Source of the DNA: Protonemura montana
Taxonomy: Eukaryota > Arthropoda > Insecta > Plecoptera > Nemouridae
DNA: 64,000 bases
Direction: 5' to 3'
Assembly (NCBI GenBank): GCA_947568835.1
Contig: OX387608.1
Coordinates: 1-64,000 of the forward strand
The position numbers and the translations under genes are program-made. Shown piece by piece: positions 3,198 to 56,660 of this stretch; within the stretch, counting starts at the first letter, position 1, and every line of letters begins with the position of its first letter. The notes under the pieces are model-generated. The model worked only from the letters and a program-made list of their open reading frames with translations, ran no database searches and had not been told where the DNA came from.

Positions 3198-3229
3198 TAT
3201 AAATTCGTTCGCGTGGAAATTTTGAGTCA
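3198..3229 (+). promoter_or_regulatory. H2A core promoter (TATA box and predicted start)
   Basis: TATAAA at 3198-3203 and an initiator-like TCAATT with A(+1) at 3229, 31 bp downstream, which is the standard arthropod spacing. The start site is inferred from spacing, not measured. The predicted leader is 67 bases to the ATG at 3296. It contains a perfect hairpin, GCTACG-TGT-CGTAGC, at 3246-3260. In unit 6 the retrotransposon enters this leader. Confidence 0.75.
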
Positions 3230-3259
3230 ATTCTCTGAAACCTCTGCTACGTGTCGTAG

Positions 3260-7861: not shown

Positions 7862-7944
7862 CCTACCTACCTACCTACCTACCTACCTACCTACCTACCT
7901 ACCTACCTACCTACCTACCTACCTACCTACCTACCTACCTACCT
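7862..7944. repeat. (CCTA)n microsatellite, unit 1
   Basis: About 20 perfect copies of CCTA on the plus strand (TAGG on the minus). The open frame reading YLPT through it is an artefact. Confidence 0.97.
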
Positions 7945-8230: not shown

Positions 8231-8350
8231 GTCAACGGCCATACCATGTTGAAAACACCGGTTCTCGTCCGATCACCGAAGTTAAGCAACATCGGGCGTG
8301 GTCAGTACTTGGATGGGTGACCGCTTGGGAACACCACGTGCCGTTGGCAA
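8231..8350 (+). rRNA. 5S ribosomal RNA gene, position C, unit 1
   Basis: Identical 120 bases to the gene at 70-189. Followed by CCTATATTTTTAACC, whose T-run is the likely terminator. Confidence 0.97.
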
Positions 8351-8773: not shown

Positions 8774-9358
8774 TAGGTTAGGTTAGGTTCCGTTGGGTTT
8801 GATTAGATTAGATTTGGTTCCGTTAGGTTAGGTTAGGTTAGGTTGGGTTAGGTTAGGTTAGGTTAGGTTAGGCTAGGTTAGGTTAGGTTAGGTTAGGTTA
8901 TGTTAGGTTAGGTTAGGTTAGGTTAGGTTAGGTTAGGTTAGGTTAGGTTAGGTTTGGTTAGGTTAGGTTTGGTTACGTTAGGTTAGGTTAGGTTAGGTTA
9001 GGTTAGGTTAGGTTTGGTTAGGTTAGGTTTGGTTACGTTAGGTTAGGTTAGGTTAGGTTAGGTTAGGTTAGGTTAGGTTAGGTTAGGTTAGGTTAGGTTA
9101 GGTTAGGTTAGGTTAGGTTAGGTTAGGTTAGGTCAGGTTAGGTTTGGTTAGGTTAGGTTACGTTAGGTTAGGTTAGGTTAGGTTAGGTTAGGTTAGGTTA
9201 GGTTAGGTTAGGTTAGGTTAGGTTAGGTTAGGTTAGGTTAGGTTAGGTTAGGTTAGGTTAGGTCAGGTTAGGTTTGGTTAGGTTAGGTTAGGTTAGGTTA
9301 GATTTGGTTAGGTTAGGTTAGGTTAGGTTAGATTAGGTTCCGTTAGGTTAGGTTAGGT
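8774..9358 (+). repeat. Interstitial TTAGG telomeric array, unit 1
   Basis: About 585 bp of TTAGG in plus orientation, the arthropod telomere repeat. Variant pentamers (TTTGG, TTACG, TCAGG, TTATG, CTAGG, TTGGG) sit at fixed places. A block with TTTGG and TTACG recurs 60 bp apart, and a TCAGG/TTTGG block recurs about 130 bp apart. The array is flanked by 5S-C and by the 5S-A of the next unit. Confidence 0.97.
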
Positions 9359-12478: not shown

Positions 12479-12767
12479 TATGGTCGGTGTCCGGTCAAAG
12501 TATGGAGTGTAATTTTAGTTGGTCGCTCTTATAAGTGGCAAAAGATGCACGGCACTACTGAATCGACGCTGACAGCGTCGTCGCGGAGGGCAGAAGCCAC
12601 CAATTGACGTGCTTTTTCCGTGAATTTGGGCAATCAATTGGCGCGGTGTCCGCTACGCGTCGCGGCGGCGCCTCTGTGCTGGATCGTTTGTCGCACGCCG
12701 TCCGCTATAAATTCGTTCGCGTGGAAATTTTGAGTCAATTCTCTGAAACCTCTGCTACGTGTCGTAG

Positions 12768-50741: not shown

Positions 50742-50773
50742 TATAAATTCGTTCGCGTGGAAATTTTGAGTCA
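50742..50773 (+). promoter_or_regulatory. Orphaned H2A core promoter, now upstream of the retrotransposon
   Basis: TATAAA at 50742-50747 and the predicted +1 A at 50773, as at 3198 and 3229. The sequence is unchanged up to the insertion, so transcripts from this promoter would run into the five 18-base repeats and then the element. Confidence 0.7.
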
Positions 50774-50862
50774 ATTCTCTGAAACCTCTGAATTCTCTGA
50801 AACCTCGAATTCTCTGAAACCTCGGAATTCTCTGAAACCTCTCAATTCTCTGAAACCTCTGG
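50773..50862 (+). repeat. Five tandem copies of the H2A leader start at the element's 5' junction
   Basis: Copies start at 50773, 50791, 50808, 50826 and 50844, each beginning AATTCTCTGAAACCTC. The first is AATTCTCTGAAACCTCTG, which equals 3229-3246 of unit 1. Differences occur only at copy ends: CTCTG, CTCG, CTCGG, CTCTC and CTCTGG. Intact units have one copy. The repeat phase coincides with the predicted H2A transcription start. Confidence 0.95.
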
Positions 50863-51437
50863 TTCGAGATAGTTCGTTGTCGAGAGCGGACGTGCTTTTC
50901 TTGCTCTGACAGATTTCACAGATTTCAAAGAGCAAATGTGACAGTGTCGATTTTCAAAGTGAATTACTTTTAAAGTGCAACTTGCACTTTATTTACATTT
51001 TTGTGCCTTTCGCGTGTCGAAATTGTGTTGTGATAATGTTTGCGTGTGAAAAGCGTAAGTTTCAGAACACGAGTGTTTAACACGACCCTTTTTCTCTCAT
51101 ACTGAGAAATCACGAACACGAGTGTTTTTACACGAAATTTTCTTGTTAGTTTTTAAAAGCATGAACACGAGTGTTTTTCACGCCATTTCTATGTAAAATC
51201 TGTTCGCCAGAAAAATTCCATCAGTTTGATCTCTGATCTTAAAGGGGATAGACTTCGTTCTCGCCAATATCCCGTCAACCAATGACACACGCCCTTTCTT
51301 CTGACGACCAATGACAACGCGTGTTTCAAACCGTGTTGGATCAAAGATCACAGATTAAAGGTGATAGACTTCGTTTTCTCGTTTTTGACAAGTGACATTG
51401 AACTCGAGTACCTTCAGTACGAAAACAGATTTGAATT
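50863..51437 (+). promoter_or_regulatory. Retrotransposon 5' UTR
   Basis: AT-rich leader with visible repeats. The palindromic motif AACACGAGTGTT occurs at 51066-51077, 51115-51126 and 51164-51175, exactly 49 bp apart. TAAAGTGCAA and TTGCACTTTA (50971-50991) form an inverted pair. A 29-base stretch containing GATAGACTTCGTT occurs at 51235-51263 and 51353-51381. ACCAATGACA or a close variant occurs twice between 51278 and 51320. An internal promoter may lie here but is not proven. Confidence 0.7.
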
Positions 51438-52868
51438 ATGGAATCATCGGATTCTTTTCCGGCACTCCCCGCGCCGTCTGTCAGGCGCTTTACCAAACGT
51501 AAAGGTGCATTTGTACCAGTTAATGCGCCCTTGAAAGGTTTCCCTCAAATTGCCTCATCTCCTGATAACAGCGAGGATGAGATGGACTTTCAAGTCGCAT
51601 CAAACAAACGTGGAGCGGCACCCAGCAGCTCCGACGACGAGCGCCGCATCGCGAAGCGAGTGGCACAAGTGTCCCCAACCTTGACGGCTAATCGCTTTTC
51701 CCCGATTGCGCCGATCGACGTTCCGGCTAGCTCGGCCGAACCAGACCAGACCAACGATGCCGAGCCAGAGGCATCAGTCAAAAACTACAAGATCCCGCCC
51801 GTGTGCGTCAAAAACTTTGCCACACACAAAGCCTTAGTCACATACATTTCTCAAGTGACAAAAGCTTTCATCGTCACTCCTCGCCGTGACTTCTCCCGCG
51901 TCCAGCTGGAGAAAATTCCTGACTACCGGGCACTGACATCGGCCTTGGAGGAAGACAAAATCGAGCACTACACCTTTTCCGAGTCGCGCCCGAAAACTCA
52001 GAGATTCGTGATCCGCGGGCTCCCAACAAACGCCGACCCGGCCGAGATCCGAGAAGAGTTGGAGTGGCTCGGTATCCCGACACGCTCAGTGACCCAACTG
52101 CATCGCCATGCAAGCGGCAACATCGAAGGCCGCAAAGCTCTCGGCGACAAACTGCCGCTATACGCAGTTTCCCTCGCCGCTCGACAACCCGGCACCAAGC
52201 CGGTCGATCTGACCGGGCTCATCCGACTCCAGAACTGCGTGGTGTCGGTCGAGGCGCCGCGTGACTCGACGCCAAAAGCCCCGATGTGTTTCCGCTGCCA
52301 ACACATCGGACACGTATCGGAATTCTGCCGGCGTCAAGCTCGCTGCGTGAGCTGCGGCCAGGACCACGCGTCGAACACTTGCACGGTCCCCATGACCGTC
52401 AAGGCTACATGCGCGAACTGTGGCGGAGAACACCCGGCCAACTATCGCGGGTGCGAATATCTCCGAAGAGCCCAGGCACGCCACCACCAACAGCGGCCGT
52501 CCCTGGGAGAAGCAGTCCGTGGATCCCGGAACAGCGATGGGCAACGCCGGCGACTGGAGGTACCAGACCGTACCCCGGCAAAGCCAGTGAGCGCGACACT
52601 GAGCTTTGCCCGGGCAACGGCCGGAACAAACCCTTTCGTAGACCCGGCTCCCGAACCAATCGCAGAGCAAATCCAGGAACCAGTTTCGACCAGCCAATCG
52701 AACGCCGAATCCAACATCTTTGGCGTTCCATTGGCGGGGATTGACTGGCGCTCAATCATTCTGACTTTGGCCAAAGCAATTGCCGACGCAAAAATCCATC
52801 CGACCATCACGATGCTCGCGCAACTTGCGCCGACACTCATTGCGACCCTGATGCCCCAAAATGCCTGA
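51438..52868 (+). CDS. Retrotransposon ORF1, gag-like nucleic-acid-binding protein
   Basis: 476 residues starting at an ATG. The N-terminal 110 residues are Ser/Pro/acidic-rich and probably disordered. Residues about 189-275 (RFVIRGLPTNADPAEIREEL onward) resemble the region preceding the zinc knuckles in Jockey-type ORF1 proteins. Three zinc knuckles follow: C284-x2-C-x4-H-x4-C297, C303-x2-C-x3-H-x4-C315 and C325-x2-C-x3-H-x6-C339, the spacing typical of Jockey, I and R1 elements. The protein is expected to coat element RNA. No frameshift or stop. The stop codon overlaps the ORF2 start. Confidence 0.92.
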   Translation: MESSDSFPALPAPSVRRFTKRKGAFVPVNAPLKGFPQIASSPDNSEDEMDFQVASNKRGAAPSSSDDERRIAKRVAQVSPTLTANRFSPIAPIDVPASSAEPDQTNDAEPEASVKNYKIPPVCVKNFATHKALVTYISQVTKAFIVTPRRDFSRVQLEKIPDYRALTSALEEDKIEHYTFSESRPKTQRFVIRGLPTNADPAEIREELEWLGIPTRSVTQLHRHASGNIEGRKALGDKLPLYAVSLAARQPGTKPVDLTGLIRLQNCVVSVEAPRDSTPKAPMCFRCQHIGHVSEFCRRQARCVSCGQDHASNTCTVPMTVKATCANCGGEHPANYRGCEYLRRAQARHHQQRPSLGEAVRGSRNSDGQRRRLEVPDRTPAKPVSATLSFARATAGTNPFVDPAPEPIAEQIQEPVSTSQSNAESNIFGVPLAGIDWRSIILTLAKAIADAKIHPTITMLAQLAPTLIATLMPQNA

Positions 52869-55512
52869 ACATCCTCGGCAAACCAATCTTATGACTTGGA
52901 ACGCCAACAGCGTCATTCCGAAACGGACCGAACTACACGACTTTCTAGACAGACACAGCATCGCTGTAGGACTTCTGACTGAGACCAGACTTTCACCAAA
53001 CAGACAATTTGCCATGGCAAATTACGTGACTTACCGGACAGACAGACCTCACAACAATCAACCAAACCAGATCGGTGGCGGCGTCGCCGTGCTGGTTCGA
53101 CGCGGCATCAAGCACGAGCCGCTGGCCCTGCCCACGTTACGATCTATTGAAGCCGTCGGCGTACTGGTACATACAGACAACGGGCCGTTACGTGTCTTTT
53201 CTGTGTACTGCCCCCCACTATCACGGCTACACAAAGAGGACATCAACGTGCTGATCGACTCTCCGCTTCCCACATTAATAGCGGGCGATCTGAACGCCAA
53301 ACACCCGGCGTGGAACTCGCGCAAGACAAACGCGAAGGGCAAGACGCTTCTCCGACACTCCATCGACGCCGGCTTTATTGTCGCCGGACCCACGGACCCG
53401 ACGCACCATCACGGCAACCGTGCCGACAGTGCAGACGTCCTCGACATCGCTCTGCTCAACAACATCGAACACACTGTCGAACTCGCGACACTCCCCGAGC
53501 TCTCCTCTGATCACAACCCTGTCATCATCAGAATCGGGGAAGGGGTTGAGACCGTGACACCGGCACCGACACGCAACTTTCGACGGGCTGACTGGGATGC
53601 ATTTCGCATCAAGACTGACGAACTGACTGACGACTCTGACATAACGACCCCGGCCGAACTTGACGCCGCGACCGACAACCTCACCGCGGCAATCCAGGCC
53701 GCCATCGCCGACGCTGTGCCTCTCCGCAACGACAAGCGCTGCGATCGTTTCGATCTGCCGCAGCACTTGATACTTGCCATCAAGGACAAAAACAGAAGCA
53801 AGCGAGCCTGGCAACAGTTTCGCACTGCAACCTTGAAATCAACTTACAACAGGAAGACGAAGGCACTGCGACGAGCACTCGATGAGTTTCGCGAGAAACG
53901 ATGGTCGACCTTGGTGGGCGAGCTCGCCACGACTGACGGCAGCACTTGGCGCATGACGCGCAAACTGCTCAACAAGCAGTCGGCTAGTTCGCCGGTTCAG
54001 GGCCGCCTCCATCTGGCCGTGACCTCGCGCGACAAAGCCGCTGCTTTTGCCGAGTCACTGCAGGAGCAGTTTACTCCAAACCCTGCCAATCGCTACTCGG
54101 GAGGCATCGAACGCCGAGTTGAAACATTCCTCGCCGAACAACGCGAGAGAGACCTTGGCGACATCGAACCGGCCACCTTCGCCGAGGTAGCAACGATCGT
54201 CGCGAAGCTGAAGAAACAGAAGGCACCGGGTCCGGACCAGATTCCGAACATAGCCATCTCAGAGCTGTGCCAAAAAGCGGCCCAACGGCTGGTCGACATC
54301 ACAAACGCGTCGCTGCGATTGCGCAGATTCCCTGGCCAATGGAAGACTGCTAAAATCATAGTCTTCCCAAAGCCAGGCAAGTCACCTAGGGATGTCAAGA
54401 ACTATCGCCCGATATCCCTACTCTCATGCCTCTCAAAGGTATGCGAGAAGGTGATTCTGCGCCGCCTACAGCGACAAGTCGACGACGCGGCCTTGCTGAT
54501 ACCCCAGCAGTTCGGCTTCCGGGCAAAGCATTCGACGAGCCACCAACTCCTGCGCGTGACAGACGCGATACGCGACGGCTTTGCGCGGAAACATCTGACC
54601 GGCATCGTCTGCCTCGACATCGCCAAGGCCTTCGATCGCGTCTGGCACGCCGGGCTCATCGACAAGCTTCGAGCGCTTGGCATCGACGCCGACCTTGTCA
54701 CGCTACTGGCAAGCTACCTCGACGGGCGCCGTTTCTTCGTGACGCACGGGGACGCGCGCTCTGAAGAACGACCGATATCTGCCGGGGTCCCGCAAGGCAG
54801 CCTGCTGTCGCCGCTGCTGTACAACTTGTACACAAATGACATGCCGACCGAGCTGCCGGGGACGCAGATAGCCCTCTACGCCGACGACGCCGCAGTGTTC
54901 TGTCAATCCAAGCTGGCCAGGACACTGCAATACGACTTGCAAGACGCACTCGACATACTTTCACGCTACTTCCGACGACACCGGATCGAGGTGAACGCGA
55001 CCAAGACAACTGCGACGCTGTTCTCTCGACGGACTAAACCAGACTACGTGCCATCGATTGCACTGGGCGACGTTGACATTACCTGGCAAGACTCCGTCAA
55101 ATACCTCGGAGTGACTCTCGACAAAAAACTGACTTTCCGACAACACTTGGACACGACAAGAAACAAGGCCGTGGGCAAACTCAACGCCCTCAGACCCCTT
55201 CTCACCTCGAAGACGATGTCGGTAGAGCAGAAGACCTTGCTCTACACAGCGATCATCAGACCGACACTAACGTACGGCTGTGCGGTCTGGGCAGACTGCG
55301 CTCAAAAACACCGAGCGAGTCTGCAAAGAATCCAGAACCGGGCGCTTCGGGCCGCCCTACGACTGCCGATGTTCGCGAGGACAGCCGACATTCACCGGCA
55401 ATGTGACTTGCCGATGCTCGACGACTTCATCGACCGACTGAACGAGCCGTTCTTCGCCGCGCTCGGCGAACACGAAAACCCGCTGATCAGCCGACTCGGA
55501 CTGACTGACTGA
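52861..55512 (+). CDS. Retrotransposon ORF2, endonuclease and reverse transcriptase
   Basis: 883 residues. The N-terminal apurinic-type endonuclease has N14 (TWNANS), E41 (LLTETRL), the GDLN motif at 142-145 and SDH at 216-218, so its catalytic residues are present. The reverse transcriptase has NYRPISLLS, motif A with D586 (CLDIAKAFDRVW), motif B GVPQGSLLSPLLYNLYTND, motif C YADD at 673-676, and VKYLGVTLD. The C-terminus has the YGCAVW motif common in Jockey-type elements and no RNase H domain. The start codon lies in ATGCCTGA, where the last three bases are the ORF1 stop codon, so translation by termination-reinitiation is plausible. Confidence 0.94.
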   Translation: MPEHPRQTNLMTWNANSVIPKRTELHDFLDRHSIAVGLLTETRLSPNRQFAMANYVTYRTDRPHNNQPNQIGGGVAVLVRRGIKHEPLALPTLRSIEAVGVLVHTDNGPLRVFSVYCPPLSRLHKEDINVLIDSPLPTLIAGDLNAKHPAWNSRKTNAKGKTLLRHSIDAGFIVAGPTDPTHHHGNRADSADVLDIALLNNIEHTVELATLPELSSDHNPVIIRIGEGVETVTPAPTRNFRRADWDAFRIKTDELTDDSDITTPAELDAATDNLTAAIQAAIADAVPLRNDKRCDRFDLPQHLILAIKDKNRSKRAWQQFRTATLKSTYNRKTKALRRALDEFREKRWSTLVGELATTDGSTWRMTRKLLNKQSASSPVQGRLHLAVTSRDKAAAFAESLQEQFTPNPANRYSGGIERRVETFLAEQRERDLGDIEPATFAEVATIVAKLKKQKAPGPDQIPNIAISELCQKAAQRLVDITNASLRLRRFPGQWKTAKIIVFPKPGKSPRDVKNYRPISLLSCLSKVCEKVILRRLQRQVDDAALLIPQQFGFRAKHSTSHQLLRVTDAIRDGFARKHLTGIVCLDIAKAFDRVWHAGLIDKLRALGIDADLVTLLASYLDGRRFFVTHGDARSEERPISAGVPQGSLLSPLLYNLYTNDMPTELPGTQIALYADDAAVFCQSKLARTLQYDLQDALDILSRYFRRHRIEVNATKTTATLFSRRTKPDYVPSIALGDVDITWQDSVKYLGVTLDKKLTFRQHLDTTRNKAVGKLNALRPLLTSKTMSVEQKTLLYTAIIRPTLTYGCAVWADCAQKHRASLQRIQNRALRAALRLPMFARTADIHRQCDLPMLDDFIDRLNEPFFAALGEHENPLISRLGLTD

Positions 55513-56221
55513 CTACCTGACTGACCGACCAGACCATCATCACTGACTTAGCTGGCTTTCAGCTTTGTCAGGCCACCTCTCATTCCCTGCCGCAAAAAAA
55601 AAAAAGGCACCACACCTCATCTCCTACATCCTGCACTTCTTCGTCAAACACGACAACAACTCACATCTCTCCGCTTTGTTTGACAACCTTTCATTGTCAA
55701 ACACCAAAACAACACACAATTAGTCAGATCTTTTCTGGCTAATTGTACTCACCTCATTCCACGCCGCAACAAACAAAAAAGGCACCAAATTCACATCACC
55801 TCATCATCATCATCAACTCTTCGCCGCTTTCCCACGGAACCTACCCATACGTCCTTCTGGCCACGTGACTTTTCATCACTTGGCCAAAAATTCCCGCATT
55901 CGCAACAAAAAAAAAAAAAAAGAATGTTCCCAAATTTCCTCTAAGTCTCGCGATTTTGAGACAGCCAGTCGGGGTCACTAACGGCTTGCCGGACCCCGGC
56001 GAGAAGACATCCTCTCCCCGGTAAACACCACAGGCAGAACGACCGGGCATGTTGAGATCCCATCCCCACCACTCCTACCCCGCACCAATCAGATCACGCG
56101 ATTTGATATTTCCGTGCAAATCCTTCCCGTGCTTCACACATCCAAGATTTTATTTCAAAGCCCCCGCAGGGCAGTATAAATTCAATTCCCCCGGTGCAAA
56201 CCGGACAGATAGCGACCACTG
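55513..56221 (+). other. Retrotransposon 3' UTR
   Basis: Contains tandem CTGA after the stop codon, three internal A-runs (about 55594-55605, 55770-55780 and 55908-55921) and two hairpins. GTTTGACAA pairs with TTGTCAAAC (55678-55702). AATTAGTCAGA pairs with TCTGGCTAATT (55718-55744, one wobble). The end has no poly(A) tail. The final 140 bases have promoter-like motifs, listed separately. Confidence 0.7.
56085..56207 (+). promoter_or_regulatory. Promoter-like cluster at the element's 3' end
   Basis: CCAAT at 56085-56089, GTGCAAAT at 56114-56121 (one base off the octamer ATGCAAAT) and TATAAATTC at 56175-56183, the same nonamer as in the native H2A promoter. A possible start A lies about 32 bp after the TATA at 56207. 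It could drive the displaced H2A gene at 56286. Function is inferred from motif order and spacing only. Confidence 0.4.
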
Positions 56222-56236
56222 TCTCTGAAACCTCTG
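56222..56236 (+). repeat. 3' target-site duplication
   Basis: TCTCTGAAACCTCTG, followed directly by the intact H2A leader hairpin. Confidence 0.92.
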
Positions 56237-56249
56237 CTACGTGTCGTAG

Positions 56250-56660
<411 letters not shown>

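Follow-up and report, generated by a model that had tools for sequence, protein, structure and literature searches.

LINEs in the genome of Protonemura montana are, on strong evidence, aimed at the starts of histone genes. One of them, element A, an intact LINE with two ORFs, lies in the leader of a histone H2A gene and is separated from the TATA promoter of that gene by five tandem copies of the leader. The window, that is the whole stretch of DNA that we analysed, comprises the 64,000 nucleotides of C11:1-64000, and the genome searched comprises 258 Mb in 34 contigs (C11, C16, C3 and so on). The window contains a histone array with units of about 9.5 kb, in which the genes are ordered H2B-, H2A+, H4-, H3+, H1- (strands as signs) and are accompanied by 5S rRNA genes. 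The H2A coding region occurs nine times genome-wide, with 100% identity and on C11 alone. Six of these H2A genes are in the window. Five have uninterrupted leaders, each with a single leader copy that serves as the empty-site comparison (3229..3246 on the plus strand, and likewise at 12737, 22245, 31753 and 41261), and the sixth is split between positions 50773 and 56221. The coding region of the interrupted unit (56286..56660, plus strand) is intact and identical to that of the other units.

A five-copy leader array at the H2A start

In the interrupted unit the TATAAA box of the H2A promoter (50742..50747, plus strand) is followed by five tandem copies of the H2A leader, +1..+18 (50773..50861, plus strand), which start at 50773, 50791, 50808, 50826 and 50844. 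The first leader A is located 31 bases after the first T of TATAAA, both here and in one intact unit, so that the phase of the array begins at the predicted H2A +1, as the original prediction had stated. In the H2B, H4 and H3 genes of this unit, too, an A follows TATA at a distance of 30 or 31 bases. Because other As stand near by, and because no TATA was found within 160 bases of H1, +1 is to be read as a predicted and not a mapped start.

The unit of the array is AATTCTCTGAAACCTC(TG), of which each of the eight other C11 H2A genes has one copy. TRF reports an 18-bp period with 5.0 copies and 93% matches. When the window was searched for the 16-mer with at most two mismatches, ten matches were obtained, five in the array and one in each of five other units, compared with none in 100 shuffles. 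Exact matches to the 16-mer number 16 genome-wide (five in the array, eight in the other C11 H2A genes and three in other A copies), while the 18-mer with at most two mismatches has 43 genome matches versus 15 when the control, the reversed sequence, was searched; 19 of the 43 are accounted for by H2A genes and A copies, and the remaining 24 are somewhat more than the control. The claim of five leader copies against one per intact unit is therefore confirmed by the window and genome matches and by TRF.

The first 16 bases of the leader are identical in all five copies and variation is confined to the copy ends, in agreement with the constant starts and variable ends described originally. In order, the copies end with CTCTG, CTCG, CTCGG, CTCTC and CTCTG (then G). 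With a slash marking the junction, the joins are CTCTG/AATT, CTCG/AATT, CTCGG/AATT and CTCTC/AATT, and the last copy enters element A as CTCTG/GTTCG. Three departures from the 18-mer all fall within its last two positions, which has a chance of (2/18)^3 = 0.0014 in a test chosen after the data had been seen; the differing joins thus argue for separate events. It is very improbable that the five copies are an artefact of assembling or polishing near-identical tandem repeats: the histone array is highly repetitive and contains the start of C11, but the four junctions are mutually different, which would not be expected from mere repetition of a unit. A plain 15-bp duplication produced by staggered cuts without insertion was also considered as the source of the leader array and was rejected, the period being 18 and starting at +1.

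Element A and its insertion site

Element A is a non-LTR retrotransposon of 5360 bp, counted from where the last leader copy stops through its 3' terminus ...GCGACCACTG (50862..56221, plus strand); the 3' end is the same or similar in the A copies at L011, L025 and L026. ORF1 (51438..52868, plus strand) encodes 476 aa with three CCHC zinc knuckles, and ORF2 (52861..55512, plus strand) encodes 883 aa, without a stop, comprising an apurinic-type endonuclease and a reverse transcriptase. Pfam gave no match for ORF1, while the matches for ORF2 (E <= 0.001) were limited to Exo_endo_phos, Exo_endo_phos_2 and RVT_1, with RNase H absent. The best solved-structure matches of ORF2 were an RNA-directed DNA polymerase (8c8j), LINE-1 ORF2p and R2. 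Three CCHC knuckles are found in ORF1 of each of elements A, B and C (the latter two are described below), and we take their spacing to mark the Jockey clade. Classed by its predicted domains and knuckles, element A is an intact Jockey-like non-LTR retrotransposon, which probably inserted recently.

The 3' flank of the element opens with TCTCTGAAACCTCTGCTACG, which is H2A from +4; the target duplication is therefore +4..+18, or 15 bp, and its 3' copy, TCTCTGAAACCTCTG, is at 56222..56236 (plus strand). The element thus does sit in the H2A leader, as had been proposed, with a target duplication that ends at +18. The target duplication alone is 15 bp, but the leader repeat has a period of 18, the distance that separates the predicted start and the cut of the top strand at +18; joining of target DNA that ends at +18 to cDNA of an RNA that starts at +1 should produce just this period.

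The 5' region of element A has 17 matches in the genome, 16 on C11 (50,870 to 926,108) and one in a histone unit on C16. The 3' region has 11 matches, six on C11, two on C16 and three on C3; the C3 matches, away from histone genes, indicate that targeting of H2A is not absolute. Most other A copies are decayed or partial and lie within the first 0.93 Mb of C11, and many of those on C11 are decayed duplicates of each other and thus not independent. No relic H2A coding sequence was found beside the decayed copies, as the genome search gave just the nine C11 genes.

Further insertions at or beside the H2A site are nevertheless present, in keeping with the predicted reinsertion at the same site. 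At L011 (C11:428.8 kb) two A elements are arranged head to tail. The 3' end of the first is followed by H2A +4..+17, then by CAATT, a loss of five bases, AAACCTCT and the second element, beginning with its 5' end; this locus has the same +4 edge as the window copy, and its second leader copy is present but damaged. The histone unit at C16:29487.5 kb, covered by L056 (C16:29487300-29489500) and L018, is 96% identical over 1142 aligned bases and includes 5S, H2B, the divergent promoter and H2A up to -1. From H2A -1 this unit carries a 5'-shortened LINE, E, which ends in poly(A) and TTTCAGTC. Between the TTTCAGTC duplication of E and leader +1 there are 18 unexplained bases (CTGGGCATCCTGGGCCCC), after which come AATTCTCTGAAACCTCT and, at +17, element A without about 20 bases of its 5' end. 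Targeting of the same base is therefore seen in the 3' edges of the window copy and L011, both at H2A +4, while the C16 copy has its 5' edge at +17 and its 3' edge out of view. The expectation that most full-length copies would be at H2A +18, with differing numbers of repeats, holds weakly: one full-length on-target copy, the shortened C16 copy and the L011 pair agree with it, but most others are decayed or partial.

The start of the element A RNA

Information on the RNA start comes from an off-target insertion. The loci L009, L010, L012 and L013 (C11:369.8, 488.9, 760.3 and 925.5 kb) are four segmental duplicates of one off-target A insertion and count as one event. These copies begin after ..CCTGCATCTG with AATT(C/T)TCTGAAACC(T/A)CTGG, so that the junction GCATCT/G/AATT.. 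consists of an extra G followed by H2A +1..+18, exactly one leader. The 55 bases that precede the junction match the 3'UTR of a dispersed LINE and, in three cases (C4, C12 and C14), lie about 250 bases past a same-strand ORF2 match. We fetched 12 other copies of this host LINE from among 77 matches, many of which are in one tandem array on C3, and all 12 continue past GCATCT or a close variant without the leader. It therefore seems that the RNA brought the leader with it; the preceding G does not come from the target. RNA caps can give an extra G, and a cap-derived origin fits the G seen here. Since the off-target insertion opens with an extra G and H2A +1..+18, the RNA of element A probably starts at H2A +1, and as far as sequence can tell we hold this with considerable confidence. 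In L010, where the copy extends to a 3' end, the sequence beyond that end is not from the host LINE. The insertion is thus supported on one side, and fusion by rearrangement or a template jump is possible.

Three other observations were set aside as evidence on the RNA start. The leader of L018 belongs to the target, since this copy is part of the C16 histone unit, and L017, which comes directly after a B-like LINE 3' end, may likewise represent an H2A site that has decayed. The sequence upstream of the L009 group, with 50-bp repeats and a TATA-like stretch, was considered as another promoter and rejected, as the repeats are a satellite and the 55 bases are LINE 3'UTR. The 50-bp satellite occurs near many contig ends and several times in C11:354-925 kb among decayed elements (L009:601-1050).

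It had been proposed that the element is transcribed from the H2A promoter at +1. The start at +1 is supported by the off-target G and the +1..+18 sequence after it; that the host promoter is the driver we infer, and we consider it likely that the H2A promoter and not an internal one produces the A RNA. An internal promoter, the chief alternative, would consist of an initiator in AATTC and a DPE at +28, and would start RNA at the innermost leader A at any location. The leader would then be a fixed 5' end, an on-target insertion would give two leaders, and the rest would have arisen by slippage or unequal exchange. A DPE-like AGTTC is indeed located at 50871..50875 (plus strand), at +28..+32 from the innermost leader A, a position at which we take it to fit the DPE consensus. 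It is present in four of the five copies tested (window, L009, L010 and L012; not L017) and the intact H2A gene has no AGTTC at that offset, but L009, L010 and L012 are duplicates of one insertion. The off-target group with its single leader also agrees with an internal promoter, and PMC2861651 describes promoters of this type in non-LTR elements of Drosophila, jockey among them. However, the host TATA box is intact 31 bases upstream, and an internal promoter alone would predict two on-target leaders where five are present. Slippage, moreover, copies junctions, yet no two of the four junctions between copies are alike, and the 16-base cores are uniform. We therefore regard an internal promoter, with this origin of the leaders, as rather unlikely.

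How the leader copies may have accumulated

The best explanation of the whole, in our judgement with roughly an even chance of being right, combines site-specific insertion, H2A-driven RNA and the addition of a leader in each round. Element A would insert by target-primed reverse transcription at one site in the H2A leader, where a cut of the bottom strand before +4 and of the top strand after +18 would produce the 15-bp duplication. Its RNA, starting at H2A +1, would carry the 18-base leader. A full-length copy joined to the cut H2A leader without leader homology would add one target leader in front of the leader or leaders of the RNA, and repeated rounds from the H2A promoter would lead to five copies, each junction keeping its own small scar (a trimmed TG, an extra G, or a C as at -1).

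The gain of one leader per round, as originally proposed, is plausible, at even chances or slightly below. The restriction of copy differences to the junctions speaks for it. The comparison of copies speaks against it: more than two leaders are found in the window copy only, with five, while L011 has two, damaged, and the off-target group has one. An improbable alternative is that one insertion made all the extra leaders, the reverse transcriptase having stuttered or jumped between leader templates and added non-templated bases. The junctions do carry an extra G or C, 3' ends of other clade LINEs are joined to A copies (L017, L024), and the text available from PMC8857657 reports template jumping and non-templated addition for a non-LTR reverse transcriptase. 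On the other hand, the innermost junction, CCTCTC/AATT, recurs in the diverged L011 pair, as if it had been carried by the RNA, although a single shared base is weak evidence.

The 3' end of element A contains AGGGCAGTATAAAT (56168..56181, plus strand), which is identical in all six aligned 3' ends that reach it; the 3' region has 11 matches altogether. The TATAAA of this sequence begins, in the window copy, 46 bases before the last base of the element. It is a possible candidate for a 3' promoter. The candidate could put the H2A gene that the element interrupts back under transcription or, in the manner of the 3' promoter of HeT-A, drive a tandem copy located downstream.

Other LINE lineages at histone gene starts

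Two further elements were found at histone starts. Element B (C11:71144-77435; L028, L029), an intact LINE, is in the H2A gene of the next C11 unit, with the duplication TTCGAGTCAATTC at -8..+5. Element C (C11:65430-70905; L028:1430-6905), likewise intact, is on the minus strand in an H2B leader, with the duplication ATTACACTCC; its first base lies 30 bases after the H2B TATA, where the predicted H2B A(+1) stands in other units. The ORFs of both elements are open, and ORF2 identities among A, B and C are 39-43%. LINE E of the C16 unit was considered as a fourth family, but its ORF2 part is 66% identical to that of B over 385 residues (44% to A and 43% to C). It was accordingly grouped with B, which gives three lineages and leaves the number of start-site insertions unaffected.

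Elements A, B, C and E are all in sense orientation to the histone gene. The chance that three of three (A, B and C) would be in sense and within 20 bases of one of four starts is about 7e-8, assuming even insertion over both strands of the unit and with the 20-base limit set after the data had been seen. The earlier proposal of a single histone-gene-specific element is upheld as regards a LINE in the H2A leader, but it understated the case, since three LINE lineages are present at histone starts.

A joint reading of these observations, which we offer tentatively and hold at somewhat less than an even chance as a whole, is that LINEs of three or more lineages (A; B with E; C) form a guild that specialises in the RNA polymerase II starts of replication-dependent H2A and H2B genes. 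Its members would insert in sense from -1 to +18 and use the S-phase histone promoter as their own; element A, at least, would return to the gene a TATA promoter located in its 3' end, and the leader copies of A would count H2A-driven rounds.

Several composite elements were also observed. A stretch at C11:927525 is 97% identical to B from query base 60 on, with other sequence before it, as if its 5' end had been swapped. Chimeras at C11:356-856 kb are of A type to ORF2 codon ~759 and have a B-like 3' end, and the reciprocal type occurs as well. The breakpoint is just beyond the RVT_1 match (503-753), and it looks as if the LINE lineages exchange their 3' parts where the reverse transcriptase domain ends. 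At L024:1275-1420 and L017:600-800, A copies (one of them 5'-truncated) are joined to B-like LINE 3' ends directly or within about 12 bases, possibly by template jumping.

Relation to known elements

The LINEs at histone starts employ machinery of a known kind. No histone-targeted LINE is named in the literature that we searched, which covered titles and the starts of abstracts; subscription papers and Repbase were outside this scope. Mouse L1 elements have 5' monomers, tandem promoter-region units of about 200 bp. They are like element A in having tandem units at the 5' end of a LINE, and unlike it in the ~200 bp length of the unit, which is not host-gene leader sequence.

SLACS, CZAR and CRE of trypanosomatids take a position in a leader and use the host promoter. 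According to the section of PMC12278014 at hand, these elements occupy one relative position in spliced leader RNA genes and have a restriction-like endonuclease. Element A shares with them a single relative position in a repeated host gene; it differs in its apurinic-type endonuclease, its protein-coding H2A target and the presence of two other lineages at nearby starts. It thus has neither the restriction-like endonuclease nor the spliced-leader target of the SLACS/CRE clade.

HeT-A, TART and TAHRE of Drosophila are Jockey-like, form head-to-tail arrays, have a 3' promoter and gain 5' tags when transcription starts upstream. The H2A +1..+18 carried by the off-target insertion may be a tag of the last type. 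Transcription of these elements is linked to S phase, as stated in the extract of PMC11698117 available. They target chromosome ends, while element A targets a defined internal site with a 15-bp duplication.

In the part of PMC4640811 (Utopia) covered here, a precise 3' junction, a varied 5' junction, a multicopy target and occasional tandem insertion are described; R1/R2 and other LINEs of rDNA, snRNA and telomeric repeats share these junction and target traits with element A. The targets given there are rRNA, spliced leader, tRNA, transposons, microsatellites and telomeric repeats; the paper itself deals with U2 snRNA, and most known targets are credited to the early-branched, Tx1 and R1 groups. 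The words 'histone' and 'Jockey' have no occurrences in its main text as available, nor does 'histone gene' in the available text of PMC12910113 and PMC2881922.

If the targeting is as we describe, LINEs have repeatedly settled on histone gene starts. Histone genes exist in many copies and are highly active during S phase, the time when a target-primed element could best use them. The system would then parallel that of the rDNA elements, but with a protein-coding target transcribed by RNA polymerase II, and it suggests that these LINEs live off the switches by which the cell makes histones. The leader array could also be used to find out if the number of 5' leader copies reflects past rounds of retrotransposition. 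As the leader marks the RNA start from within, it bears, too, on the making of full-length LINE RNAs, their caps and their 5' junctions.

Setting of the histone array

C11 starts inside the histone array, as noted, and C16 terminates in satellite; the two contigs may flank one gap. At C11:105916 (L055:2916) similarity to the histone unit ends just short of the H2B 3' end, a possible right end of the array. The Drosophila histone cluster is flanked by dense transposon regions, as described in the text available of PMC1794594. The P. montana histone units also contain a (CCTA)20 run (window 7862-7944 plus its copies) and a (TAGGT)n array of 543 to 585 bp (window 8774-9358 plus its copies), which resembles the insect telomere repeat and, together with the histones, points to an insect. 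In the first 12 kb, which were scanned for 5S rRNA genes, there are three per histone unit (70-188, 2206-2324 and 8231-8349), with equal score and in both orientations.
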